Of a DNA stretch of 30,162 nucleotides, positions 90 to 23,798 are shown in pieces. The notes under the pieces are model-generated. The model was not told where the DNA came from, searched no databases, and was given only the letters and a program-made list of their open reading frames with translations. This stretch comes from a virus, in the IMG/VR virus record IMGVR_UViG_3300046001_001762, positions 1 to 30,162 of that record, one strand, 5' to 3'. Every line of letters begins with the position of its first letter. Within the stretch, counting starts at the first letter, position 1. A program made the translations under genes and the position numbers.

Positions 90-97
90 TATTTATT
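90..97 (-). promoter_or_regulatory. T4-type late promoter box upstream of gp19
   Basis: Read on the minus strand the bases are AATAAATA, seven of eight matches to the T4 late consensus TATAAATA. The box overlaps the TAA stop codon (98-96) of the HNH gene and lies 31 nt before the gp19 start codon, leaving room for a normal leader. No strong Shine-Dalgarno sequence is visible in that leader. Late promoters of this type need the phage sigma factor and sliding clamp and have no -35 element. Confidence 0.6.
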
Positions 98-686
98 AGT
101 GAGACGCCTTAGTTCTGTTCTCTTTCCAAGGGATAAATTGAAGATTTGATATGTTGCCGATCACGTCAGGAGAGATTCGTTGGAGGAATCCTTTCTTGAT
201 TGATGTTATATGATCTAGCTGATAGGCTCCGTCTGTTCCACAAATGCCTCTTGGTTTATCGAAATTCTCTAGAGACGATACGTTTTGCAAACGTGTTATT
301 GATCGAACCTTACTTGAGTAGAGTTTTAGTTCTGTCCTATTAGGATTATGTTTTCCGTGGTTTTCACCTCGAACTTTAAAATTAGGTTTTCCTTTATGAG
401 CTTTGCCATAAGTGTTACCTAATTTTAATGTGCCGATCTTCTTATATGAACACTGGGTACAGCAATCTGTATTGCGTGAAAATACCCTAGTGAATTCGGA
501 TTTACATTTATCACATATACATTTTACTTCAATTTTGCATCCTTTGGTTAGTTGGGAACTCTTAACAGCTATTACAGGGAAAAACTTTCTCTTAGGAGCG
601 GGGTTTGGAAATTCATATCCCAAACCCCGCCAATATGAAGAGGTCTTGCCTATAACAGTGATGCTAATGGGCTCGTCTATAACCAT
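96..686 (-). CDS. Free-standing HNH homing endonuclease
   Basis: A 196-residue protein with a possible zinc ribbon (C58-x2-C61 and C76-x2-C79) and a C-terminal HNH nuclease signature: YQLDH (D158, H159), then N181 in the ISNLQ segment and N190 in WKENR. The N-terminal region, with SYWRGLGYE followed by V-K-C and paired cysteines, resembles HNH homing endonucleases found free-standing in T4-like phages. Such enzymes cut related phage genomes lacking the gene and spread by repair. The start codon overlaps the gp18 stop by one base (TAATG), so translation is probably coupled to gp18. It is inserted between gp18 and gp19, which adjoin in T4, and does not disrupt either. All motif residues look intact, so it may be active. 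Confidence 0.85.
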   Translation of the reverse strand: MVIDEPISITVIGKTSSYWRGLGYEFPNPAPKRKFFPVIAVKSSQLTKGCKIEVKCICDKCKSEFTRVFSRNTDCCTQCSYKKIGTLKLGNTYGKAHKGKPNFKVRGENHGKHNPNRTELKLYSSKVRSITRLQNVSSLENFDKPRGICGTDGAYQLDHITSIKKGFLQRISPDVIGNISNLQFIPWKENRTKASH

Positions 687-3340: not shown

Positions 3341-4939
3341 TCAAAGGCCCCATTCCTTCTGAGCTGCAATCAATGCCGCATATGCAGCCATACTTGTGTC
3401 TTGTTCGGTCGTGTCTGGCATAATACCGAACGGAACAACGTCATCCTCCATCTCCTTGATCCGATCCGAATAAAGCAAATCTTTGAGGTTCACAGACGAT
3501 GAATCCTTGAATAGGTCGGTTGACACGAACCAAGAGAACAACACGATGTTCATTACAAGGTCATCATTCGTATTTCCTGCAGCCGCATATGAACCTGATG
3601 AGGTGGCCTCGAATGAACTCAATTCTGCGATTGAGTTCGCGTCGCTGATCGAGAGCTTACCGGACTCGATCAAGTCCTTTGCGTTTGAACACCCGATTCG
3701 TTTGACACGCTTTGTCATGGTAACACCGATACCCATTGACTTCACGGATGACTCGACGAACGTATTTTCGTACTCATACTCGTGATAGACAGTGTTGCAT
3801 ACGACGTGACCAGCATCATTATTTTCAATGATGACAAGCGCGTCCGCATAAAGCTTAGCACAACGGACAATGATGTCCGGGAATAGCAGCGGCGATATGT
3901 TATTATTTCGGTAGACCGCTACCTGCTCAAATGGCATAACGCTAGTGTCGAAGATAGTGAACGTCGAATAGTCCTGCCCACGTCCCTTCGAGACGTCGAC
4001 TGTCATCACGTATGAATGCCCTTCAACGGGAACCTTGTAATACCTAACATCATTCCTTAACTCGAACGGATCAATTGCTTTTAGGGCAAGGAGGACCGCC
4101 GAACTAATCAGCGTATCGGATGAGCCAATGAAGTTGACATCAAATTCTTGACTGAATTGAAGCTCGGACGTGTTCGCGATCGTCAACGCCTTCCATGCCT
4201 CGTCACGACCCGGAACGTCCGACCATTTGATCGTGAACGGTTTGAAACCGTCGGCTGTTGGTTGTGTTACCGCCTTCTCCCAAAGCTTGTAGAACATATT
4301 GCCGATTCCGTTAGGAGTCGATGTGATGATTACCTTCGAGTCTTCACCTGACGTGATAACCGGGTAGGTTGATGTATAGAATGTTGCCGCATCGTTGACG
4401 AACGCGAACTCGTCAAGGAAAATGACGTTCATCGAAAGACCACGAATCGAACTTGAACTCGTCGCGGCCGCAATGATCTTCGAGTTATTCGAGAAGTGAA
4501 TCGAGCCTTTGTTGAGTTGCTTACAACCAGGCTGGAGGAAGAACGGAATGTTCTCAAGCATCAACGTCAAACGCGAAAGCATTTCGCGCGCAGTGGCTCC
4601 TTTGTTTGCAAGGATGCCGACCATCTTCTCCGCGTGGAAAAGGACATACCAAAGAAGCCATGCAACTGAAGTTACCGACTTGCCTGATTGCCGACACGCA
4701 AGAACGATGCTGAATCGGTTGTCCGAGAAGTGTTTGACCATCTTCTTCTGATAACCATACAGCTTGAAATCGACAAGCCCTTTATTAAGGTTGATGACCT
4801 TGACATATTTCTCGATGAAGTACTCAGGATCCTCAGAACACTTGATGTATTCCTCAAGCTCGGTATCGGTGTACTGCTGCTCAACACCATCCCTCTTCAC
4901 ATACGGGTTGCCGTTATAGCCGTGCTCAGGATTGTTCAT
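3341..4939 (-). CDS. gp17: Terminase large subunit gp17 (packaging ATPase and nuclease)
   Basis: A 532-residue DNA packaging motor. The N-terminal ATPase shows a Walker A-type CRQSGKS at residues 82-88, Walker B VIFLDEF (D176, E177) and the coupling motif STPNG at 207-211. The C-terminal RNase H-fold nuclease shows VDVSKGRGQDYS with D315, an acidic IEN with E372, and the NDDLVMN segment (D459, D460) near its end. These match the T4 gp17 catalytic triad pattern. The enzyme cuts concatemeric DNA and pumps it through the portal. Its start overlaps the stop of the upstream GIY-YIG gene (AATGA), so translation is probably coupled. Its usual partner gp16 is about 5.3 kb upstream rather than adjacent. 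Confidence 0.97.
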   Translation of the reverse strand: MNNPEHGYNGNPYVKRDGVEQQYTDTELEEYIKCSEDPEYFIEKYVKVINLNKGLVDFKLYGYQKKMVKHFSDNRFSIVLACRQSGKSVTSVAWLLWYVLFHAEKMVGILANKGATAREMLSRLTLMLENIPFFLQPGCKQLNKGSIHFSNNSKIIAAATSSSSIRGLSMNVIFLDEFAFVNDAATFYTSTYPVITSGEDSKVIITSTPNGIGNMFYKLWEKAVTQPTADGFKPFTIKWSDVPGRDEAWKALTIANTSELQFSQEFDVNFIGSSDTLISSAVLLALKAIDPFELRNDVRYYKVPVEGHSYVMTVDVSKGRGQDYSTFTIFDTSVMPFEQVAVYRNNNISPLLFPDIIVRCAKLYADALVIIENNDAGHVVCNTVYHEYEYENTFVESSVKSMGIGVTMTKRVKRIGCSNAKDLIESGKLSISDANSIAELSSFEATSSGSYAAAGNTNDDLVMNIVLFSWFVSTDLFKDSSSVNLKDLLYSDRIKEMEDDVVPFGIMPDTTEQDTSMAAYAALIAAQKEWGL

Positions 4940-5529
4940 TTTGTTAGCTCGATCCAGGTTGGGTATTGTTCGCTTTTGAGGCGGGTCCTCACGTGATAGC
5001 GGCTAATCGAAAACGCCTTACATACTTCGCCAATACCAACATAAACTTTATCGTCAACACTAATTCGCTTGCATATCCATGGTTTTGGGATTCCAGTTGT
5101 TGCTGCACTAACTGATGCTGAACGTCGGGCTCTTACCTCAGGAGAATCTTTCATGCCTCGTCTGGCCTCAGCACCTAGCTTAGCAGCCATTAACACTTTT
5201 TGTTTGTCTCTCCTAGGAGTTCTAATTCCAGGTTTGCCTTTGAAGTTTTTAACACCAGCACCTCCCTGAATTTTATTCAAGCAAAATGGATCCGCTAAAT
5301 ACCTATCGCCGACCAAAGTCTTTTCATGAGCAAATGCAGCGTCACTGGATTCATGTAAAGCTACCATTTCAAATGAGTGTCTTGCATTTTGTTTGATGAG
5401 GTTTGCTACATCGACGCCAGACCCTTTATAGCGATCATTTAACCGCTTTGTTGAATGCTTGCCAAAATAATAAAACCCAGTATCCGGAAAGGTGATCTTA
5501 TATGTAATGTGAAAATACTGAGCGATCAT
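4936..5529 (-). CDS. Free-standing GIY-YIG homing endonuclease (Seg-like)
   Basis: A 197-residue protein with an N-terminal GIY-YIG domain: YKI at residues 10-12 and YYFGKHST at 20-27, followed by LNDRYKGSG, catalytic-type E69 in AHEKTLV, and N85 in CLNKIQGG. This pattern matches T4 Seg-family endonucleases. A basic linker (about 105-145) and a C-terminal segment KVYVGIGEVCKAFSIS resembling a NUMOD DNA-binding helix follow. These enzymes make site-specific breaks in gene-lacking genomes and spread by repair. The gene sits directly before gp17 with an overlapping stop/start and has its own late promoter box 7 nt before its ATG. All key residues appear present. Confidence 0.9.
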   Translation of the reverse strand: MIAQYFHITYKITFPDTGFYYFGKHSTKRLNDRYKGSGVDVANLIKQNARHSFEMVALHESSDAAFAHEKTLVGDRYLADPFCLNKIQGGAGVKNFKGKPGIRTPRRDKQKVLMAAKLGAEARRGMKDSPEVRARRSASVSAATTGIPKPWICKRISVDDKVYVGIGEVCKAFSISRYHVRTRLKSEQYPTWIELTK

Positions 5530-5544: not shown

Positions 5545-5917
5545 CCTTTCTAAAGCATGCCCACCCGAAGGTGTTCACGGCCTGATAAACGATATCACGC
5601 CGGTACCAAGGTACGCCTATGTTAAACATTGCTTCCTTGAAGATTAGGTCAGCCTCTTTACGATTATAGAGAGGACATTCCTTGTTGTAAAGATAGTCGT
5701 GAATGACAGCGGCGGCAAAGTAATCGCCGAACGGAGCAAGGATTGACCAAAACACCTTTGGAATGCTTGCTCCATCAGTGATGAAACCTTCAGGCACAAT
5801 AATAGTTCCCTTCGATGAGACGTAACTAAATGGCTTTTCTAGTCTGAAGCACCGAGATGAACCACGCATGCCTGCGTCTTCAAAACATAGCTTGTCTGGA
5901 AAATAGTCATTCATCAT
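5540..5917 (-). CDS. DUF1353 family protein
   Basis: A 125-residue protein of the DUF1353 family, common in phages and of unknown function. The family hallmarks are the PEGFITDGASIPKVFW segment and the AVIHDYLYN motif, followed by the acidic helix RKEADLIFKEAM. I chose the ATG at 5917 rather than the one at 5932. A GGGGAG Shine-Dalgarno lies at a suitable distance upstream of 5917, and this start overlaps the upstream TGA stop (ATGATGA), the usual coupling arrangement here. The longer form would add only five residues and would place the Shine-Dalgarno inside the coding sequence. It lies at the end of the inserted block between gp16 and gp17. No role can be given. Confidence 0.85.
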   Translation of the reverse strand: MMNDYFPDKLCFEDAGMRGSSRCFRLEKPFSYVSSKGTIIVPEGFITDGASIPKVFWSILAPFGDYFAAAVIHDYLYNKECPLYNRKEADLIFKEAMFNIGVPWYRRDIVYQAVNTFGWACFRKA

Positions 5918-7938
5918 ACTTCTTCTCCCCATGTTAGAACTAGATCGCCCACACCGTTAGAAAGCGTGCATGTGACGACAAGATAATCGCCGCGAACCAA
6001 TGTTACTTCGCAACCAGGCTTTCCAATATCAACTGTCTTAGAAACGTTTGCTTCAACAAACACGGTGTCGAGGTATTCCATTGACGCAACGGTTGCTGCA
6101 GTTGCACGAGTTGTGCCAGCTGTCATCGTAGGCGAGTCAGTTTGAACGAATGAGCCATTGCCTAGAGCAACAAGAACCTCACCTGTGATAAGGCCTGGAT
6201 TGCGTGCGCGGAATAAGCGGTATGTTGCTTTCTTAGTGTTATTCACGGAAAGCTCTAGGAGAGTAATAGACCGAGTGTTAGTGACGCCGTTAATCAAGAG
6301 CGGGTTGTGAATAACAAGTGTAGGAACATTCGTGCCGTTAAGTGTTACCGCGTCCGCAGCAGCTGATCCATACTGATGCGTGTCATCAAGACCATTCTCC
6401 GACGTGATATCACAGCAGCCGATGTTCATCGTAACATCCTGTGTTGTTCGAGTTGCTTTGAACGAAACAGGAAGCGCAGGATTTTCCATCGAGAGCGCGG
6501 TAAGAGTACCGAGAGATGAAATCGTATGAACGAGCTTCAGGTTAATGAAGAACTTGTAGTTACCAACGCCTCTCCATTGATATTGGATGTCATAGACGTT
6601 GCCTTTCTCGACGTCGAAGCCAGGAATAGATGAAGTGTCAACTTCAGCCTCGTAGTTTTGTGCGCCGCCCGACTTGCGAACCGCGTATAGTTTACCATCA
6701 TTCTTAAGACGGAAGAACACGCCGTTCTCCGTTGTTTGAAGTCCCCACTCGCGAACACCGTTAGCTGTTTTAGTTGGGCACCACACAGCAGTCGAGAACA
6801 AATGTCCTCTGTTAGGCTGATATCTAGGAGATAGCCGTGACTCAAGAATCAATGCTGACTTCGTCGAGGTTGCATTCAGTTGTGCCGCCCCTAGATTAGA
6901 AATAATGTTAGTCGATGTATAGACTTGAACACCGTTCTCATACATGAACCAACTCTTAGCGGGAATATCATATGTCCACATTCCGTGGAATAGAGATTGA
7001 GGCAATGAAATCTTTTGAATGCCCCATGCATCGAGCGTGATGTCGCCCTCACCCATAACAGAATCGGTTAGTATTGGTGCTGCACGAAGCTGAGCATCAG
7101 TCAAGCCGTTCGAAGTAGCGACCGTGCCTGAGATAGGAACTGCGGATGCTCTTAATTGTGTGTCGGTTAATGGGCCAGAAACAGGAACCGGCGTAGTACG
7201 AAGTTCGACGTTAGTAAGGCCACCTGAGACAGGAACTGCTGACGCACGAAGTTGAGCATTTGTTAGGCCACCTGTGGTGACATCAATCGGAGTAGCTCTA
7301 AGCTCGGCATCTGTTAGACCGCCTGTTGAAACTGTGCCGGAGACAGGAACTGGAGTTGCACGAAGTTGTGTGTCAGTAAGGCCTCCTGTAGAGACAGGAA
7401 CTGGAGTTGCACGAAGTTGGGTATCAGTAAGACCTCCAGTAATGACAGTGCCAGAGACAGGAAGCGGAGTAGCGCGTAGTTGCGTATTGGTTAGACCGCC
7501 TGTAGTAACATCAATTGGAGTTGCGCGAAGCTGAGTATCAGTAAGACCGCCGGTAGTAACATCAATTGGAGTCGCGCGAAGTTGAGTATCAGTGAGTGCT
7601 CCTGTGATAGGAAGAGGCGTCAAACGAAGTTGAGTATCAGTGAGTCCGCCAGTTGAAACTGTACCCGAGATAGGAACCGGAGTAGCTCTAAGCTCGGCAT
7701 CTGTTAGACCGCCTGTTGAAACCGTTCCTGAGACAGGAAGAGGTGTCAAACGCAACTCTGTGTCAGTCAGCGGTCCTGAGACAGGAACCGGAGTTGCTCT
7801 AAGTTCGGTGTCTGTTAGGCCGCCAGTATCAACAGTTCCAGTGACGAAGTGGTGAGGCGTATGGACACCAAAGGCTTCAGTCGAACGGAATGTTTGCGGT
7901 TGTGATTCGCCGTCAACAATTTTGAAGTTATCGCTCAT
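5914..7938 (-). CDS. Repeat-containing virion fibre or adhesin protein
   Basis: A 674-residue protein in three parts. Residues 1-40 are a short N-terminal segment. Residues 41-290 are 14 tandem copies of a roughly 16-22-residue unit resembling GLTDTQLRATPVPVSG. The rest is a non-repetitive beta-rich C-terminal region, with a receptor-binding or lectin-like look around 300-500 (NRGHLFSTAVW, then WGLQTTENGVFFRLKNDG). The same repeat unit is known from many phage structural proteins, where it probably forms a fibrous shaft, but I know of no solved function. It is coupled to the preceding 58-residue gene by an ATGA overlap. A virion protein used in host contact is the likely role; this is inference. 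Confidence 0.7.
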   Translation of the reverse strand: MSDNFKIVDGESQPQTFRSTEAFGVHTPHHFVTGTVDTGGLTDTELRATPVPVSGPLTDTELRLTPLPVSGTVSTGGLTDAELRATPVPISGTVSTGGLTDTQLRLTPLPITGALTDTQLRATPIDVTTGGLTDTQLRATPIDVTTGGLTNTQLRATPLPVSGTVITGGLTDTQLRATPVPVSTGGLTDTQLRATPVPVSGTVSTGGLTDAELRATPIDVTTGGLTNAQLRASAVPVSGGLTNVELRTTPVPVSGPLTDTQLRASAVPISGTVATSNGLTDAQLRAAPILTDSVMGEGDITLDAWGIQKISLPQSLFHGMWTYDIPAKSWFMYENGVQVYTSTNIISNLGAAQLNATSTKSALILESRLSPRYQPNRGHLFSTAVWCPTKTANGVREWGLQTTENGVFFRLKNDGKLYAVRKSGGAQNYEAEVDTSSIPGFDVEKGNVYDIQYQWRGVGNYKFFINLKLVHTISSLGTLTALSMENPALPVSFKATRTTQDVTMNIGCCDITSENGLDDTHQYGSAAADAVTLNGTNVPTLVIHNPLLINGVTNTRSITLLELSVNNTKKATYRLFRARNPGLITGEVLVALGNGSFVQTDSPTMTAGTTRATAATVASMEYLDTVFVEANVSKTVDIGKPGCEVTLVRGDYLVVTCTLSNGVGDLVLTWGEEV
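7069..7818 (-). repeat. Fourteen coding repeats of the LTDTQLRATP type
   Basis: Residues 41-290 of the 674-residue protein are tandem units with core (G/P/A)LT(D/N)xxLRxxPxxV(S/T)G. Units are separated by nothing or by a short TVSTG/TVITG spacer, giving unit lengths of about 16-22 residues. At the DNA level neighbouring units share long near-identical stretches, so unit number could change by recombination. Confidence 0.9.
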
Positions 7939-12695: not shown

Positions 12696-13451
12696 TTAAC
12701 CAACGAAAAAGTCAGGCGGGAACGAGTACTTCGAATCGAACTCTTCTTCAATCTTTTGAATCTCGGTATTTGCATCTTCGAAAAGAGCGCGGCCGTTGAT
12801 TGTGACACCACTTGGGAGTTGCATACCTTCAAATTTGATTAAGTTCGCGCCCCACTGCCGCTTAAGTAAAGCAGTTGCATACTTCTTAAGCATCATGTCG
12901 TTATACACGTCTGGGTATGCGTCAGGATCAAGAATTTGATAGCCTTCAAGAATAACATATTGGCCTTCCGTGAGGCCAGCCTCCAACCAATTGATTTCGA
13001 TTGAGAGGCGGTTCATATGACGTGTGAATGTCACTTGTTGTGACAACCCATTGATCGTCATGTCAATCAACGACATGTACTGCTTCGTCATTTCATAGTC
13101 AAGTATTCCGCCTGAGCGATGCAACGAATAAAGGTCATTCATATGCATCTGATACTTAACCGAGAACATATCGGATCCTGATGAATCCGCGGTCACGATA
13201 GGAAACACTCTAAATACTGAGATCAAAGCCTCAGGCAGAACAATGTAGTTATTCGCGACATCAATAGCAGTTAACTGATGCTTCACAAATACACGTTTGA
13301 CTGCGTCTGAGTGATATTCTTGGTAGTACTGAATAGCCTCATCGATGCGATCCTCGATTTGATCGTCGTCGATGTTAACTTCAACTACAGGTTCTCCGAG
13401 ATTACGAAGACAGTATTGAATGAGCGATGCTCGTGTAGTAGGTTTACTCAT
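12696..13451 (-). CDS. gp13: Neck protein gp13
   Basis: A 251-residue protein (T4 gp13 has 309). The N-terminus MSKPTTRASLIQYCLRNLG, followed by EPVVEVNIDDDQIEDRIDEA and IQYYQEYH, is characteristic of cyanophage-type gp13, so the start at 13451 is secure. gp13 binds the portal after packaging and, with gp14, completes the head. The start codon overlaps the end of the secreted discoidin-like gene (ATGAGTAA), and a late promoter box ends just 6 nt before the ATG. Confidence 0.93.
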   Translation of the reverse strand: MSKPTTRASLIQYCLRNLGEPVVEVNIDDDQIEDRIDEAIQYYQEYHSDAVKRVFVKHQLTAIDVANNYIVLPEALISVFRVFPIVTADSSGSDMFSVKYQMHMNDLYSLHRSGGILDYEMTKQYMSLIDMTINGLSQQVTFTRHMNRLSIEINWLEAGLTEGQYVILEGYQILDPDAYPDVYNDMMLKKYATALLKRQWGANLIKFEGMQLPSGVTINGRALFEDANTEIQKIEEEFDSKYSFPPDFFVG

Positions 13452-14517
13452 TGATACTATTTATTAGTGCAGATTTGTATTTTTGGCCCTTAACATACGG
13501 ATACGCTATTTTGCCTATGACTTTAAAAGTGGCGCCGCCATCAATAGACATAGACACATGGATGTATTTCTTGATGTCAGGATAAGCTGGATCTATTTCA
13601 GATACGATGTTGGTTTTATATCTTTGTCCCTTGACCAAAGGATAAGGAACCTTGCCGATAGACGTGAAGCTCGCGCTCGGCACCGACATTAGTATATCAA
13701 TGAATCTGGCCGGGCTTTCGACTGCAAGAGGCATTGGAGCAGATGGAAAATTCTTGATTACGACGTTTGCTACGAGCTCGTCAGATGGTTCAGATATCAA
13801 TCCGTCTGTGTTAACTGCGACAAGCGACAAATATGTTTTCTTAGTATCCATATTGACGAATTCGTATCGCAATTTTCCAACGACGTCGATATGCTTCGTG
13901 TAGTTACCAGAAGAGAATCCGTATGAAATAACATATTTTGCAATGTTAGGTTCGGGATTAGCATCCCATTTAATCGCGAAGTTTGGAGCTACGTTTAGAG
14001 TAGTATCTATAGGTGGAGCAATAGGAGTTACTCCGAGGTCTATAACATATTCGTGCGGCAGCGGAGCTGGAATTTTCCAATCTGTTATCCAAAACGTATT
14101 TGGATTTCCATCTATTGCGAACAAAGGTCCGCCGAACGGAGATCCAACTGCTGGAGTAGAAGAATCAGCCGATACTTTCCAATCTTTACGATCTAAGTTA
14201 TTGCCATTTTTGTCTATGACATTTATTTCAGAAATGTTGGTGTTATTGCTCCCATTTCCTTCAGTTAATACTTTCAATTTAACAAAATTAGAATTGATTG
14301 TGGGAAAATTTATTTTCTTCAGTGTTTTATCATTAGACATTACACCGGACGCGACGGCCGCACCCCAATTTTTGCCGTCCATGCTGGAATACAATTCGTA
14401 TTTTGCTATGTTCCCATCTAAAACGTTATCTTGTCGTGGCAACACAGAGAATCCGCTGATGCTAGTGTCGGCGAATAGATTCAGTGCTAAAAGCAAATAT
14501 AGTAGTGCAGTTTTCAT
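13444..14517 (-). CDS. Secreted protein with a permuted discoidin (F5/8C) domain, FN3 domain and C-terminal repeats
   Basis: A 357-residue protein with an apparent signal peptide (MKTALLYLLLALNLFA, cleavage near residue 16). Residues 19-103 match the second half of an F5/8 type C domain (ISGFSVLPRQD, then YSSMDGKNWG and ISEINV). Residues 112-162 match the first half (WKVSADSS, then AIDGNPNTFW and PHEYVIDLG). The halves are thus in reverse order. A fibronectin III-like domain follows (about 168-253), then two similar units containing SIGKVPYPLVKGQRYK and VIGKIAYPYVKGQKYK (about 273-355). Discoidin domains usually bind glycans or lipids. It is Lys/Asn-rich and visibly A+T-richer than its neighbours, suggesting recent acquisition. 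A signal peptide is unusual in a virion operon; a periplasmic or cell-surface role during infection is possible. Confidence 0.75.
   Translation of the reverse strand: MKTALLYLLLALNLFADTSISGFSVLPRQDNVLDGNIAKYELYSSMDGKNWGAAVASGVMSNDKTLKKINFPTINSNFVKLKVLTEGNGSNNTNISEINVIDKNGNNLDRKDWKVSADSSTPAVGSPFGGPLFAIDGNPNTFWITDWKIPAPLPHEYVIDLGVTPIAPPIDTTLNVAPNFAIKWDANPEPNIAKYVISYGFSSGNYTKHIDVVGKLRYEFVNMDTKKTYLSLVAVNTDGLISEPSDELVANVVIKNFPSAPMPLAVESPARFIDILMSVPSASFTSIGKVPYPLVKGQRYKTNIVSEIDPAYPDIKKYIHVSMSIDGGATFKVIGKIAYPYVKGQKYKSALINSINE
13458..13465 (-). promoter_or_regulatory. T4-type late promoter box for gp13
   Basis: The minus strand reads AATAAATA (seven of eight to consensus), inside the last codons of the discoidin-like gene and ending exactly 6 nt before the gp13 ATG. 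As the gp13 start is fixed by homology, transcription from this box would yield an essentially leaderless gp13 mRNA. It would drive the neck-gene operon gp13 to gp16. Confidence 0.6.
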
Positions 14518-14519
14518 AA

Positions 14520-17390
14520 TTATAGATTGGTTAATGATTGGAGTCTTGGTCCTGATAAACGTTTCTTGTAGTAGCGGATGCGGGAAATATGCCCGGTCGG
14601 CCAGCCGGCGTCGGCGTTTGCTGGGTCCGCAAGTAGAAATTGTGTAGGGGTAATTGGTGTAGGCGTGGCGCTTGTTGCATGTGCGCCGCCATTGAACGAA
14701 CGAGTCGCAGTAGTTCCGCTCATCGATATTGCTACTTTAAACGGATCATTGCCTGGCCAGCCTAAGTTCACTGACGTTGAATGCTGAATCATTGGGGCTG
14801 CAGTTTGCTTGAATATCACCCAGTGTCCAGTATACGATGCGCCGTTCGCAAACCCAACGATTGACCTATTGCCGAACGCGCCCGCTGGGACTAACAAGTC
14901 ACCCTCCCAGGTCAATGTTCCAGCGGCCGGGTTGTATAGTTTGTCGAAGGCGAACGCCGCCGCTGTGGTCGCGGTTTGCACGTAGGTCGGAGCAGTTGAT
15001 CCGTAAGACATCATCGCACCCCACAAGTAGAACTTGTCGGTGCTGTTTCCGACCACGGTGCGCGAACCGCTTCTTGCCGGGGACAGCCGCAAGGTCGTCG
15101 TCGAGGTTGCCAAGGCCACTGCGGTCACGGAACACCGATACCAACCATTTCCGACAGCCAAGATGGTCCCCGCAGCGCCAGTCGAGGACGCGACCGATCC
15201 GGCTCCCGAAAGATTGAAAATAATATCGACCGGCCAAGTGCCCGGACTACCAGCCCAGGCGGAGAACTGCGGGAAGTCGCCGCCGTTGACGTAAAACGAA
15301 AAGCAATAAGGCACCCCGGCCGTGAACCCCACGTTCTGCACGCATTGATAGACCGTAGTGGTAGCGCCGACCGTGCACTTATCGGCGGTCTGCGTTCCGT
15401 TAGGTGCCATGGCTTCCGCAGTGTCCGCAGCAACCGTGAAGTTTCTGGTTCCGGCCGGACTCCAGTCCGCTGCGTCAAATGCCTGCGACTGTGGGATTAT
15501 GTTAGCAGGAATGAAATCCGTCGCTTCAGTGCCGTTCTCAAGCTGTGCCCCGTATAAGCAGAACCTAGCAGAAGTTGCTCTGGTGATTTCGTTGTTTCCG
15601 ATAACGGCACGGTAGTCAATATAGCACACCGACCCTCCGGTAAACGTGGCTGTTATAGCTAGCCTATACCAGCCATCACCAACAGACTCGAATGTCGGCG
15701 GTTTCACTAGAGTTCCATTAGCAGTGTTGTATGAACCCAACACGCCGCTCCCGGTGAAATCCACATAAGCATTCACAGAGAGTCCTGTGGACGTCTTGAA
15801 AGTTACTCGCAACCAGTTCGATGTCCCTTTCTTCAAATATACAGATGCGGTATGCGCGGCACCTATGGTATGAGCACCACCGCCAGACACAATGTCGCCA
15901 GTGTTGCTGAAAAGCACCTCCTGACCAGCGTTTCCTCCGAACGGATCAGCCACGGCAGCATATAAGGAAGATCCGGCAAATGACCACGGTGAGGCTACCA
16001 TATTGCCCCCGGCGACTATCAAGTTGTCACGACGGAAGTTCTCCCGATACACTCCGAGATAGTCACGGCTTCGCGTCGCGGTTGCCGTGGTAGTCGGGAT
16101 GTAAGATGTCGGGAATGCGCCAACCTCAAGCTGCGCCCCCCAAAGAGCGTAAGCGCCAATATCAACTAGAGTGATGGTTTCATACACGAAACTGCTGTTG
16201 GTAAAAGTAATCCATACTCTATACCATCCGTTTGCGTGCTTTTCAATTCCTCCAGCATACCCGGCATCGTTAGCTGTCACGCTTCCCGCGCCAGCCAATG
16301 AAAACGTGCTGCCGTTTGCCCCGGAGAGGGCGTATCCGAGCTTGAAAGTGATGCCCGCGCCTAACGGTTTTACAAACACGCTGTAAGTCTGCGTGCTGGC
16401 GCTAGTAGTGCGCTGTCGATAATGGTAGTTGCTAACAACGGATGTAGTCCATACATCCGCCGCCAACGTCCCGTCCGGTGCGACTTCCGAGTTCTCCAAT
16501 ACAGTTAGTCCGGGTCCGATAGACCAGTTGGTTCCACCGTTGGCTAGAAACAAAGTGGAGTTTGTGATCAGGTTCGTCCTCGTCTCCTCATACAGTAATC
16601 CTTTGCATGCTCCGGTGATTGGGTCGTGATCGTAGCGTGGACCAAACACGCCGCCCCCAACAGCGGAGGGCATGTATGGATGCAATGTCGTTCCGCGAGA
16701 CACCTGAATACCCCAAAGGTAAACCCCGCTAGTGCCGTCCCCGTTGTATGAGTTGCTCACCCCGTTGTGGAGTCCGACATCCATCAGATAGTCAGGCGCG
16801 GCTAGGTAAGACAGCCAGCACCTCCACCAACCATTACCAGCATCTACGATACCACTGGCCAGCACGGATGCTCCTTGAGAAAGCACAACGCCGTTTACCA
16901 AGTCAAAGGTGGCGATATTCGCTGGATTGATAGCACCCACTGTCCCTACCAGCGCCATAGAGCGTCCAGCGGCCTTCAGGTAGCACGACATGTTGCACGC
17001 CCGTCCAGTCAAGGCAGCAGCCCCCATGCTAACCCTCGCATAGTGCGTGTTTGCGGCAGTGGAATCCTCTATGATCTTGTCAGCCGTTAGCTCCCCATTA
17101 GGTGCCGTCGTGGCGTTGTAGGCAGCAGTCGTGCGGGTCTTCGTCCATGGAGTGATGTCCTCGGAGTTGTTGGTTAAGTTCTCTGCCGCATACTTAATTG
17201 ATCCGTCCGAATCCACGAAAGTCCCGAGGCTTGCGCGGGAGAACTGCATGGCTGGCCCACGAAGGCTCGGAATCAAAAAGCCGTTTGGCACATACGGATC
17301 TTTCGTGAAGGCGGGCTTCTCCTTCAAGTTACAATCCAGCGCAAGCTTTTCATTGCCTGCCGTCAGTCTATGTTTGAACGGATAGAACAT
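14520..17390 (-). CDS. Large multi-module tail fibre or adhesin
   Basis: A 956-residue protein starting at the ATG at 17390, one base after the upstream TGA. A longer frame opens at 17537, but its first 49 residues overlap the end of the fibre gene before it and look like a frame shadow. After an N-terminal region come four diverged beta-sandwich modules of about 160-190 residues, each with a signature like GNGWYRC (corrected residues about 185, 387, 572, 748) and a closing LWGAQLEVG-type strand. These resemble phage head-spike/fibre or carbohydrate-binding folds. The final 140 residues (GTLTWEGDLLVP, then SRIRYYKKRLS) look like a concanavalin/LamG-type lectin. The gene is visibly G+C-rich compared with the core genes, suggesting transfer from another phage group. 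Likely a host-binding fibre. Confidence 0.75.
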   Translation of the reverse strand: MFYPFKHRLTAGNEKLALDCNLKEKPAFTKDPYVPNGFLIPSLRGPAMQFSRASLGTFVDSDGSIKYAAENLTNNSEDITPWTKTRTTAAYNATTAPNGELTADKIIEDSTAANTHYARVSMGAAALTGRACNMSCYLKAAGRSMALVGTVGAINPANIATFDLVNGVVLSQGASVLASGIVDAGNGWWRCWLSYLAAPDYLMDVGLHNGVSNSYNGDGTSGVYLWGIQVSRGTTLHPYMPSAVGGGVFGPRYDHDPITGACKGLLYEETRTNLITNSTLFLANGGTNWSIGPGLTVLENSEVAPDGTLAADVWTTSVVSNYHYRQRTTSASTQTYSVFVKPLGAGITFKLGYALSGANGSTFSLAGAGSVTANDAGYAGGIEKHANGWYRVWITFTNSSFVYETITLVDIGAYALWGAQLEVGAFPTSYIPTTTATATRSRDYLGVYRENFRRDNLIVAGGNMVASPWSFAGSSLYAAVADPFGGNAGQEVLFSNTGDIVSGGGAHTIGAAHTASVYLKKGTSNWLRVTFKTSTGLSVNAYVDFTGSGVLGSYNTANGTLVKPPTFESVGDGWYRLAITATFTGGSVCYIDYRAVIGNNEITRATSARFCLYGAQLENGTEATDFIPANIIPQSQAFDAADWSPAGTRNFTVAADTAEAMAPNGTQTADKCTVGATTTVYQCVQNVGFTAGVPYCFSFYVNGGDFPQFSAWAGSPGTWPVDIIFNLSGAGSVASSTGAAGTILAVGNGWYRCSVTAVALATSTTTLRLSPARSGSRTVVGNSTDKFYLWGAMMSYGSTAPTYVQTATTAAAFAFDKLYNPAAGTLTWEGDLLVPAGAFGNRSIVGFANGASYTGHWVIFKQTAAPMIQHSTSVNLGWPGNDPFKVAISMSGTTATRSFNGGAHATSATPTPITPTQFLLADPANADAGWPTGHISRIRYYKKRLSGPRLQSLTNL

Positions 17391-17391
17391 A

Positions 17392-19176
17392 TCAGTAAGT
17401 GAATCCTTGTGCGCAAGTTCCAAACCATTTGCCGCCCTTAGCAACAAATGAAATGATGTCCATCTTGCCAATTGCAGTAGTGATTGTTGGCGCACCAGCA
17501 TCGCCCCAATCAACTCCGGTGAAAGTTGCGCTACCATTTCCAGTGACGGCCGGCTGCTTCACGAACAGCGTAAAGCTTGTTCCTTCGGTAGCAGGAGGCA
17601 TTGTGACCACACAAGCAGTTGAGGCCGTTAGCGTAACATCCAACGAGGTTCCGCTAGTGATGCTTAATGTGCAAGCGGTTCCAACCCCAGTAGTCGTTGC
17701 GGTAGTTGAAGTCTCTGCGAAGGCTGCTATAGTAGTGTTGCCGCCTACATTCAGCGCGCCACCGATACCAACTCCGCCCACCACAACCAAGGCTCCAGTT
17801 GATGTGTTGGTAGATGCCGTGTTAGGCGCAACATACGCCCGAGTATTAGTTAGATTAAGAACGTCCGTCGCTCCGTTAATTTGGAACCGCATCTCTCCGT
17901 TGTAGGCATTGCGGAAGTATACGGTGTAGTTGGTCTGGCCAGAAGATGCGTCGATCACGCCAAACGATCCGATGCTGCGGAATGCAGTGCCGGATATTGT
18001 GTTCCCGATATTGATACCCATGGAGACGTTATGTGCCGTCTCAGTAGACTGGATGGCAGCGAACGTGTTCCTTCCTGATCTTGAGTTTAGGATGCCATTG
18101 AAAGTATGAGCTGTGGTAGCATTGAGTCCATACGTCATCGAGGACCATGTGCCGGAATAACCGATAGCTAGATCATTTGCACCGATTACATTGGAAAAGG
18201 CCGTTCCGTTTCCAATAGTAAGGTAAGGCAATTTTAACGAGCCATCGTTTCTAGTGAACGCGAGGACACTGCCTGCACTGTTATGATACTCCTGAAGGTT
18301 ACCTGTCTGGCCAGCAGCTCCTTTCACAGTAAGGCCTATTACACCCGCACCGCTTGATTGGATAGTCTGCCCGCCCGTGAGCTTGATGAACAGCCCTCCA
18401 AGTTTGGAGAACATATTCGCCCATGAGAATAGTTTTGTTTCAGCGCCTGACTTAACAGCAAAGGAGTCGGCATCTGCGACATCGGAGACAGTCGTGGTGA
18501 ATGTGCCGCTAACAGCAGCATTAGTAACATTTGCGTCATTCCCATCAACGCCATCGGCTCCAGGTTCGCCAACTAATGTGAAGGACCAGTCAGAGGTTGC
18601 TGATGGGTCCGCTGTATAGAACAGAACATCTACTATCATCCACTGCCCATCGTAGGAAACAACTCGTCCCTCGACATAGTAGGATTGTCCTAAGGCCGTA
18701 AATCGGATTCGGTTTCCTGGAACGAACGCTAAGTTAGCTCCTACAAAAATCTCCTGCTCACCAATCAGGCTGCTTATTTCAGCGATGGTGGTTCCGCTAT
18801 AAACTGGAGCTGATACTCCATCAATACCATCATCGCCTTTTTCACCTTTGATGTCAGCTAGCGCAATGATGTTGATCCACGTGTCTGTATTAGTTGGCTT
18901 CCATTGGATATGAGTTCCATTGTTGCGGAGATCTACACTCTCGCCAACATCACCCTTTAAGCTAGCAATAGAAACTAAATCTGTCCACACCACATCTCCC
19001 TCATATCGCCACTGAATATGAGTGACACCTGCTTGGATTTCCACCGGCCGGCCATCGGCTCCAGCAGGACCAACATTCAGTATGGTATTCTGCAAATGCC
19101 GTGGAGCATCCACATCCATTGCTAAAGCATGAGTGTGCGGCCCAACTCTAACCTTTATTGTAGTCAATTCACTCAT
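17392..19176 (-). CDS. Tail fibre with collagen-like segments
   Basis: A 594-residue protein. Collagen-like Gly-x-y stretches occur near the N-terminus (VGPAGADGRP, KGEKGDDGIDG, GEPGADGVDGND). They are interleaved with two copies of a small unit reading THIQWRYEGDVVWTDLVSIA and THIQWKPTNTDTWINIIALA. Such segments form trimeric shafts in phage fibres. A long beta-rich part follows with a STGALVVVGGVGIGGALNVGG segment, common near the ends of phage fibre shafts, and a C-terminal domain ending WFGTCAQGFTY. It is coupled to the preceding gene by an ATGA overlap and directly precedes the 956-residue adhesin. It is probably the attachment or shaft partner of that module. Confidence 0.8.
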   Translation of the reverse strand: MSELTTIKVRVGPHTHALAMDVDAPRHLQNTILNVGPAGADGRPVEIQAGVTHIQWRYEGDVVWTDLVSIASLKGDVGESVDLRNNGTHIQWKPTNTDTWINIIALADIKGEKGDDGIDGVSAPVYSGTTIAEISSLIGEQEIFVGANLAFVPGNRIRFTALGQSYYVEGRVVSYDGQWMIVDVLFYTADPSATSDWSFTLVGEPGADGVDGNDANVTNAAVSGTFTTTVSDVADADSFAVKSGAETKLFSWANMFSKLGGLFIKLTGGQTIQSSGAGVIGLTVKGAAGQTGNLQEYHNSAGSVLAFTRNDGSLKLPYLTIGNGTAFSNVIGANDLAIGYSGTWSSMTYGLNATTAHTFNGILNSRSGRNTFAAIQSTETAHNVSMGINIGNTISGTAFRSIGSFGVIDASSGQTNYTVYFRNAYNGEMRFQINGATDVLNLTNTRAYVAPNTASTNTSTGALVVVGGVGIGGALNVGGNTTIAAFAETSTTATTTGVGTACTLSITSGTSLDVTLTASTACVVTMPPATEGTSFTLFVKQPAVTGNGSATFTGVDWGDAGAPTITTAIGKMDIISFVAKGGKWFGTCAQGFTY

Positions 19177-22754: not shown

Positions 22755-23798
22755 TTAGAATATAAGCGTGAACATGAAACCGCCAAAAGCAGCAGCGGGT
22801 ATGCTATTAGCGTCTTTGAAAGCAACATTATTTTCGATGAGATTAGTAAGCTTTGTGTCTATGCTCTGCACAACGAAATATCCCGCCTGTCTATCCGTCA
22901 CAGTAAATAAATGGTCGCCGTTATTGCCCAATCCAGTGACCATTACACTATAACCAGTGATTGGCATGGCCCAATTAAAGTGAATAACTGCGATGCCAAC
23001 ACCCCAAGGCCCCATTGGTGCTATGGTTGTGTTAATTTCTGCGGAGCAGTTACCGAACCCTCCGCCGCCGAACACAGTTCCAAATGCCCGAACACCATAT
23101 ATTCTATATGCATCATATGCAGTGCCGCCAAACAACTTGCTTGATGTTATAGCACCTCCGCCGACTTTAGTAGCAGTGATTGCGCCGTCACCGATCTTTC
23201 CATTCGTGACCGCGAGATTTGCAATCTTTGTTCCGGTCACAGCTAAATCAGCAATCTTTCCAGTCGTGACATTAAGATCTGCGATCTTAGTAGATATGAC
23301 TGATCCGTCGATCAGCTTCCCGGATGAAATCGTGGTGTTTGCAATCTTTGTTCCGGTCACAGCTAAATCTGCGATCTTTCCAGTCATGACAGCTAGATCT
23401 GCGATCTTTCCAGTCGTGACAGCCAGATCAGCGATCTTTCCAGTCGTGACATTAAGATCAGCGATCTTATCAGTAATTACTCCGCCTAAACTTATACGTG
23501 TAGACGTTACGGCGCCGACCGCAATCTTTCCTTCAGTTACGGCTGCAGCAGCTAGCTTTAAAGTTGTGACAGCATCATTGAGAATATGGGTTGTGTTAAC
23601 GCCGTTTACTTTAAGAGAAATCGTATTCGTCGATGTATTGACCGAAATGGATTCTGACGCAGAGTTTGCACCAAAGCCAGCGATCACGTTGATGACGCCG
23701 TTGTCTTTCTTCCGCCATAGGTTGAACGTGTCAGTCGTCACAACACCGCTCGACGAAAATGCATCGAACGAAGTGAACTCATCAGGATCAGTAATCAT
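22755..23798 (-). CDS. Tail fibre with strict 10-residue repeats
   Basis: A 347-residue protein. The N-terminus has TFNLWRKKDNGVINVI, an opening typical of fibre proteins in cyanophage-like T4 relatives. Residues 71-224 are 15 units of exactly 10 residues, xxxAVTTGKI-like (for example ADLAVTTGKI), with Lys or Arg at 81, 91 and every tenth residue to 221. This suggests a regular trimeric beta shaft. The C-terminal 120 residues (YRIYGVRAFGTVF, then HFNWAMPITGYSVMVTGLGNNGDH) form a globular tip. The late promoter box ends 6 nt before its ATG. Likely a receptor-binding or short tail fibre. Confidence 0.8.
   Translation of the reverse strand: MITDPDEFTSFDAFSSSGVVTTDTFNLWRKKDNGVINVIAGFGANSASESISVNTSTNTISLKVNGVNTTHILNDAVTTLKLAAAAVTEGKIAVGAVTSTRISLGGVITDKIADLNVTTGKIADLAVTTGKIADLAVMTGKIADLAVTGTKIANTTISSGKLIDGSVISTKIADLNVTTGKIADLAVTGTKIANLAVTNGKIGDGAITATKVGGGAITSSKLFGGTAYDAYRIYGVRAFGTVFGGGGFGNCSAEINTTIAPMGPWGVGIAVIHFNWAMPITGYSVMVTGLGNNGDHLFTVTDRQAGYFVVQSIDTKLTNLIENNVAFKDANSIPAAAFGGFMFTLIF
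23127..23588 (-). repeat. Fifteen coding 30-bp repeats in a fibre shaft
   Basis: Each unit is 30 bp and encodes 10 residues with no insertions or deletions. A 120-bp higher-order duplication is visible: the 29 bases at 23221-23249 are identical to those at 23341-23369, exactly four units apart. Such DNA can gain or lose units by slippage or recombination. Confidence 0.9.

Follow-up and report, generated by a model that had tools for sequence, protein, structure and literature searches.

A T4-like phage protein with the two halves of its F5/8C domain in reverse order: evidence for a probable natural circular permutation

The DNA analysed here, called the window throughout, is a stretch of 30,162 nucleotides making up positions 1 to 30,162 of IMG/VR virus record IMGVR_UViG_3300046001_001762. 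Between a tail protein gene and a neck protein gene, the window encodes a small protein (P0001) in which the second half of an F5/8C domain precedes the first. The features of the locus, all on the minus strand, are as follows.

14520..17537 (-), tail protein gene directly upstream (phrog_5939, E 4.5e-99)
13444..14517 (-), gene for P0001, a predicted permuted F5/8C - FN3 protein of 357 aa (ATG at 14517, stop at 13444)
14470..14517 (-), N-terminal signal-peptide-like stretch, residues 1-16 (MKTALLYLLLALNLFA, followed by D), recognized by sequence
14209..14463 (-), F5/8C second half, residues 19-103 (ISGFSVLPRQD ... ISEINVID), from profiles, phmmer and a structural match
14227..14229 (-), E97, predicted calcium ligand from the second half (GalOx E142; LnbB E931), from the galactose oxidase alignment
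14188..14214 (-), new junction of the old C-terminus to the old N-terminus, residues 102-110 (IDKNGNNLD), with an HMM gap of 3-4 residues
14029..14205 (-), F5/8C first half, residues 105-163 (GNNLDRKDWKVSADS ... AIDGNPNTFW ... PHEYVIDLG), from profiles, phmmer and models
14095..14112 (-), D136-G-N138-P-N-T141, predicted calcium ligands from the first half (GalOx D32/N34/T37; LnbB D804/N806/T809), from the galactose oxidase alignment
13768..14022 (-), FN3-like domain, about residues 166-250; the homologue in a distant phage, L093, matches PF00041 at 170-241, E 2e-8
13447..13767 (-), C-terminal region of two similar units of ~45 residues, residues 251-357, seen in the sequence
12696..13451 (-), neck protein gene (head-tail adaptor Ad2, gp13-like; phrog_211, E 4e-41)

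The tail protein gene ends 2 bp from the start of the P0001 gene, and the end of the latter is overlapped by 8 nt by the start of the neck gene. The P0001 gene lies within a T4-like structural cluster that also includes terminase, tail sheath and baseplate genes, and of the named relatives, Phage C48C1, a member of Kyanoviridae, is closest in its terminase (59% identical). The same gene is found at 99-100% identity on six viral contigs from other assemblies, which shows that it is not a single assembly error. We consider an assembly or sequencing chimera vanishingly improbable given that the order recurs on those six contigs and in a diverged homologue on the 116 kb L093 contig.

Relatives differ in what occupies the slot between tail genes and neck gene, and P0001 was absent from the neck-gene relatives on viral contigs. 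Two relatives carry several signal-peptide-like proteins in this slot (L044 2582-5985 and L058 4146-5229), and two others carry genes that by sequence are sulfotransferase-like and sugar-related (L016 2933-3733 and L019 3066-5403). Elsewhere in the window, inspection by eye found a GIY-YIG endonuclease-like ORF adjoining the large terminase gene (4936-5529, minus strand) and an HNH-type endonuclease-like ORF adjoining the tail sheath gene (96-686, minus strand); proteins rich in short repeats (GLTDTQLRATPVPVSG; TGKIADLAVT) are encoded at 5914-7938 and 22755-23798, both on the minus strand.

From its N-terminus, P0001 consists of the signal-peptide-like stretch, the second and then the first F5/8C half, the FN3-like domain and the two C-terminal repeats. 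No family was found for the protein in PHROGs or NCBIfam, and a Pfam search gave no FN3 match in P0001 itself. The C-terminal units (SIGKVPYPLVKGQRYKT / VIGKIAYPYVKGQKYKS) are without a Pfam match; they are conserved in L093, and each was modelled by AF2 as three strands with moderate pLDDT.

An earlier note on this DNA had proposed that the second part of the domain precedes the first, and three kinds of sequence comparison agree on that order, with bounds of about 105-163 for the first half. The Pfam profile PF00754 matches native P0001 as two stretches (E 1.1e-16), the best of which aligns residues 13-98 with profile positions 40-127. When the domain was re-ordered to the canonical arrangement, the profile gave one continuous match (residues 8-131 to profile positions 5-127), and scored 67.6 bits, against 60.4 bits for the unaltered domain; the note had suggested such a comparison with a permuted copy. 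In a phmmer search of PDB sequences, residues 19-103 of P0001 corresponded to galactose oxidase 64-148 and residues 105-164 to galactose oxidase 6-61, again reversed. Finally, half-domain HMMs built from bacterial rows only, with phage rows left out, gave i-E values on P0001 of 3e-24 for the second half (20-101) and 2e-10 for the first half (105-162), with the database size set nominally to 100,000 sequences. A half-HMM scan found no first half upstream and no second half downstream in the 430-residue open frame of P0001. The protein thus fits PF00754/CBM32 by profile similarity across the whole domain, but is called a permuted F5/8C variant and not a plain member because the canonical order of the halves, and so of the strands, is reversed. 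Order-dependent domain models give two partial matches for such proteins, which are then easily filed as fragments. The cut in P0001 falls in the loop between the halves (IDLG/ISGF), a loop that in most canonical domains is a gap of 4-6 residues.

A homologue with the same order was found in L093, the 116 kb contig of a distant T4-like phage, which encodes a full-length protein of 353 aa that is 45% identical to P0001 over 341 aligned positions. The two proteins have in common the signal-like start, the reversed halves, the FN3 domain and the C-terminal repeats, and identity between the phages' terminases is only 32%. Between the two F5/8C domains, synonymous differences are saturated (pS 0.85) and pN is 0.35. 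The permuted domain is shown here to have been kept under purifying selection in two distant phages, which are the two lineages that make up the evolutionary sample for the phage form.

This conservation bears on the alternative raised by the earlier note, that P0001 carries two half domains left by deletions in a tandem pair, without a working domain. Deletions in a tandem pair would yield exactly the order of P0001, and two tight tandem pairs (L137 and L139) share its junction length. However, debris would decay, whereas in L093 the order persists despite saturated synonymous sites and with low pN, core and metal-site residues are kept in both halves, and a fold is predicted with confidence. 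We therefore regard a pair of useless half domains as very unlikely. Deletion from a tandem pair nevertheless survives as the probable genetic route to the permutation, although not as a competing end state.

Structure prediction points to a single folded unit. With a 35-row alignment, AF2 modelled the second half of P0001 at pLDDT 91-98 and the first half at 61-92, with values of about 61 in the loop around residues 117-126; the protein beyond the F5/8C domain was modelled poorly. The domain of the L093 homologue, predicted alone, reached a mean pLDDT of 92.2 and a pTM of 0.88. The P0001 model may have been influenced by tandem rows in its alignment; the alignment for the L093 domain contained no such rows and gave the same result. 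For both models the top VIA-align match was 6EON, and in both the alignment runs across the junction: residues 32-148 of the P0001 model gave a Z of 13.4 and an rmsd of 2.1 A over 116 residues, and residues 31-145 of the L093 homologue model gave a Z of 12.3 and an rmsd of 2.4 A over 113 residues. Residues 1-88 of the P0001 model superimposed on galactose oxidase 62-149 with an rmsd of 0.7 A over 88 residues, and the first half packs as in 6EON in both AF2 models. The 6EON and galactose oxidase matches overlap in the last strands of the second half and so jointly cover one complete sandwich, an argument made from two sequential alignments and distinct from an order-independent superposition. 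The AF2 models predict the eight-stranded jelly-roll sandwich of the F5/8C family, with the old C-terminus joined to the old N-terminus by a short loop within one sandwich, as in 6EON. A Foldseek search with the full-length P0001 model was misled by the tail, which was modelled poorly, and a structure search of BFVD gave no match at E 0.001. The two outcomes that the earlier note held would tell against a permutation were not observed: the halves form one predicted sandwich, and no full-length tandem homologue was found that would make P0001 a truncated version.

Another possibility is domain swapping, in which each sandwich is built from the second half of one chain and the first half of a different chain, so that full sandwiches exist only in a dimer or oligomer. 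Order and conservation would then look identical, the junction is short, and adhesive domains, we infer, are often oligomeric. The monomer model nevertheless closes on itself (pTM 0.88), and the same junction closes within a single chain in the 6EON crystal structure, so that swapping appears unlikely, if less remote than a pair of leftover halves.

The arrangement of the putative metal site also speaks for one domain. In the CBM32 of LnbB, the calcium ligands D804, N806 and T809 lie close to the start of the domain, and the other two, A930 and E931, close to its end (PMC12926856). Through the galactose oxidase alignment these ligands correspond to D136, N138, T141, S96 and E97 of P0001. The calcium-site residues are conserved in the L093 homologue, and the column of E97 is the only invariant one among the 35 alignment rows. 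With D, N and T contributed by the first half and E by the second, the predicted calcium site is built from both halves, and the F5/8C domain of P0001 would be expected to bind calcium. The galactose pocket of CBM32, made of Glu, Phe, His, Trp/Tyr, Arg, Asn and an aromatic residue (PMC12926856), is kept only in part: by motif position R28, F142 and W147 are retained, but the His is replaced by I144 in P0001 and by M in L093, the aromatic residue five before the conserved Glu is N92, and the Asn is D34. Galactose binding by P0001 is doubtful because the His and the aromatic residue are replaced, and its ligand may not be galactose.

Our data are best explained if the F5/8C (CBM32-type) domain of P0001 is a single, complete domain that has undergone natural circular permutation, and not debris, a reading to which we assign a probability of roughly 0.83. 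The circular permutation suggested by the earlier note, with its cut between IDLG and ISGF, gains support from the order in the 45% identical homologue, the compact predicted domain and the calcium residues drawn from both halves. The old ends of the domain would be joined via the short loop, and the new ends would lie within the IDLG/ISGF loop, such that the mature chain would start directly at the ISGF strand after removal of the signal peptide.

Across samples totalling about 1,500 bacterial genomes and scans of viral and plasmid sequences, a cut inside this loop was seen in the two phage lineages only; these scans would pick up none but fairly close relatives. Samples of 289, 296, 299, 347 and 296 genomes of five phyla did not contain the phage form, nor did plasmids or the rest of the viral scans; the Bacteroidota and Pseudomonadota samples held no phage-class protein at E 1e-13, the Bacteroidota search being one without a positive control. 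The L093 homologue had no match in the phages collection. For P0001, the sole tblastn match in that collection, a weak one, was to the phage-labelled MT836250.1 (L088), and it was rejected; its open frame resembles a bacterial fucosidase. The F5/8C region of that record is probably not phage DNA. Other viral F5/8C matches (L094-L099, L156-L163) proved to be canonical, and contiguous second-first matches in Verrucomicrobiota, other phyla and plasmids (L137-L139, L179-L185) were tandem canonical domains. A literature search that covered few subscription journals turned up no paper describing permuted F5/8C domains. The earlier note knew of no described phage example; permuted F5/8C domains at large are not new, however, as they exist in bacteria with two other cuts, one of them in the solved structure 6EON.

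The half-HMM scan of the loci distinguished four arrangements: the canonical order, a form with the last strand region first, a form cut in the middle of the second half, and the phage form. The mid-second-half class comprises GH35 and GH2 proteins (L134, L142, L144) and, by sequence, 6EON (residues about 632-778), whereas the last-strand-first class was found in secreted or galactose-oxidase-like proteins of Verrucomicrobiota and Burkholderiales. Between a second half and the first half that follows it, every permuted form has a gap of 3-4 residues, as do the tight tandem pairs L137 and L139; the gap is about 5-12 residues in other tight tandems (L138, L179-L185) and at least 77 between loosely spaced neighbouring domains.

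A tight tandem pair whose junction likewise spans 3-4 residues is a plausible ancestor, and duplication is the most likely origin of the permutation in P0001. A duplication would have produced a tight tandem pair (first-second-first-second), from which the first half at one end and the second half at the other would then have disappeared. If the outer parts were trimmed at different points after such a duplication, all of the permuted forms could be explained. More tentatively, with odds a little short of even, at least three F5/8C permutations with different cuts arose from tight tandem pairs, the one in the inter-half loop being that of the phages, where it would put the mature N-terminus of an exported envelope-binding protein on the ISGF strand. 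Natural circular permutations are rarely seen alongside intermediates. Here the sequences of canonical domains can be set beside those of tight tandem pairs and of three permuted forms, so that permutation by duplication becomes testable in one family.

The N-termini of P0001 and its L093 homologue, judged by eye, each have a K, then 12-13 mostly hydrophobic residues and an A/D junction, and the layout is the same in L093 (MKKLLLSLLLISQIYA, followed by D). P0001 is probably a secreted protein, and the export would presumably run through Sec. The signal-like N-termini, the late structural gene setting and the signal-peptide-like proteins in the same slot of relatives (L044, L058) suggest export during late infection. 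The most likely role, which we nevertheless rate somewhat below an even chance, is that of a protein made late and delivered to the host envelope, in which the F5/8C domain would bind a surface ligand, probably a glycan, with galactose not required. A virion-bound adhesin is possible, but is less easily reconciled with a signal peptide than the envelope-binding role.

Several known systems resemble P0001 in part. Galactose oxidase domain 1, the sialidase CBM32 and other canonical CBM32/PF00754 domains share its fold, strands and calcium-site residues, and in the structural alignment with galactose oxidase its second half shows 44% identity; canonical CBM32 domains differ in having the normal order of halves and an intact, His-containing galactose pocket. 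In the tight tandem pairs L137 and L139 (Verrucomicrobiota) and the arrays L179 and L180, a few residues separate a second half from the first half that comes next, and L137 and L139 are, like P0001, small proteins with a signal-like N-terminus; the difference from P0001 is that both domains are complete. The last-strand-first domains of Verrucomicrobiota (L105, L107, L109) and of the Burkholderiales galactose-oxidase-like proteins (L113, L127, L130, L186) are permuted with a 3-4-residue junction like that of P0001, but only the last strand region (second-half HMM 54-82) has moved to the front. Similar in construction are 6EON, the C-terminal domain of the Bacteroides thetaiotaomicron galactanase BT0290, and related GH35 proteins, in which the F5/8C domain is permuted and has the same short junction. 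The 6EON domain is cut in the middle of the second half (HMM positions about 28 to 34), a cut point that P0001 lacks, its own being between the halves, and it stands at the C-terminus of an enzyme, whereas P0001 is a small phage protein. Permuted F5/8C domains already occur in bacteria, and what is novel in P0001 is the cut point and the phage setting.
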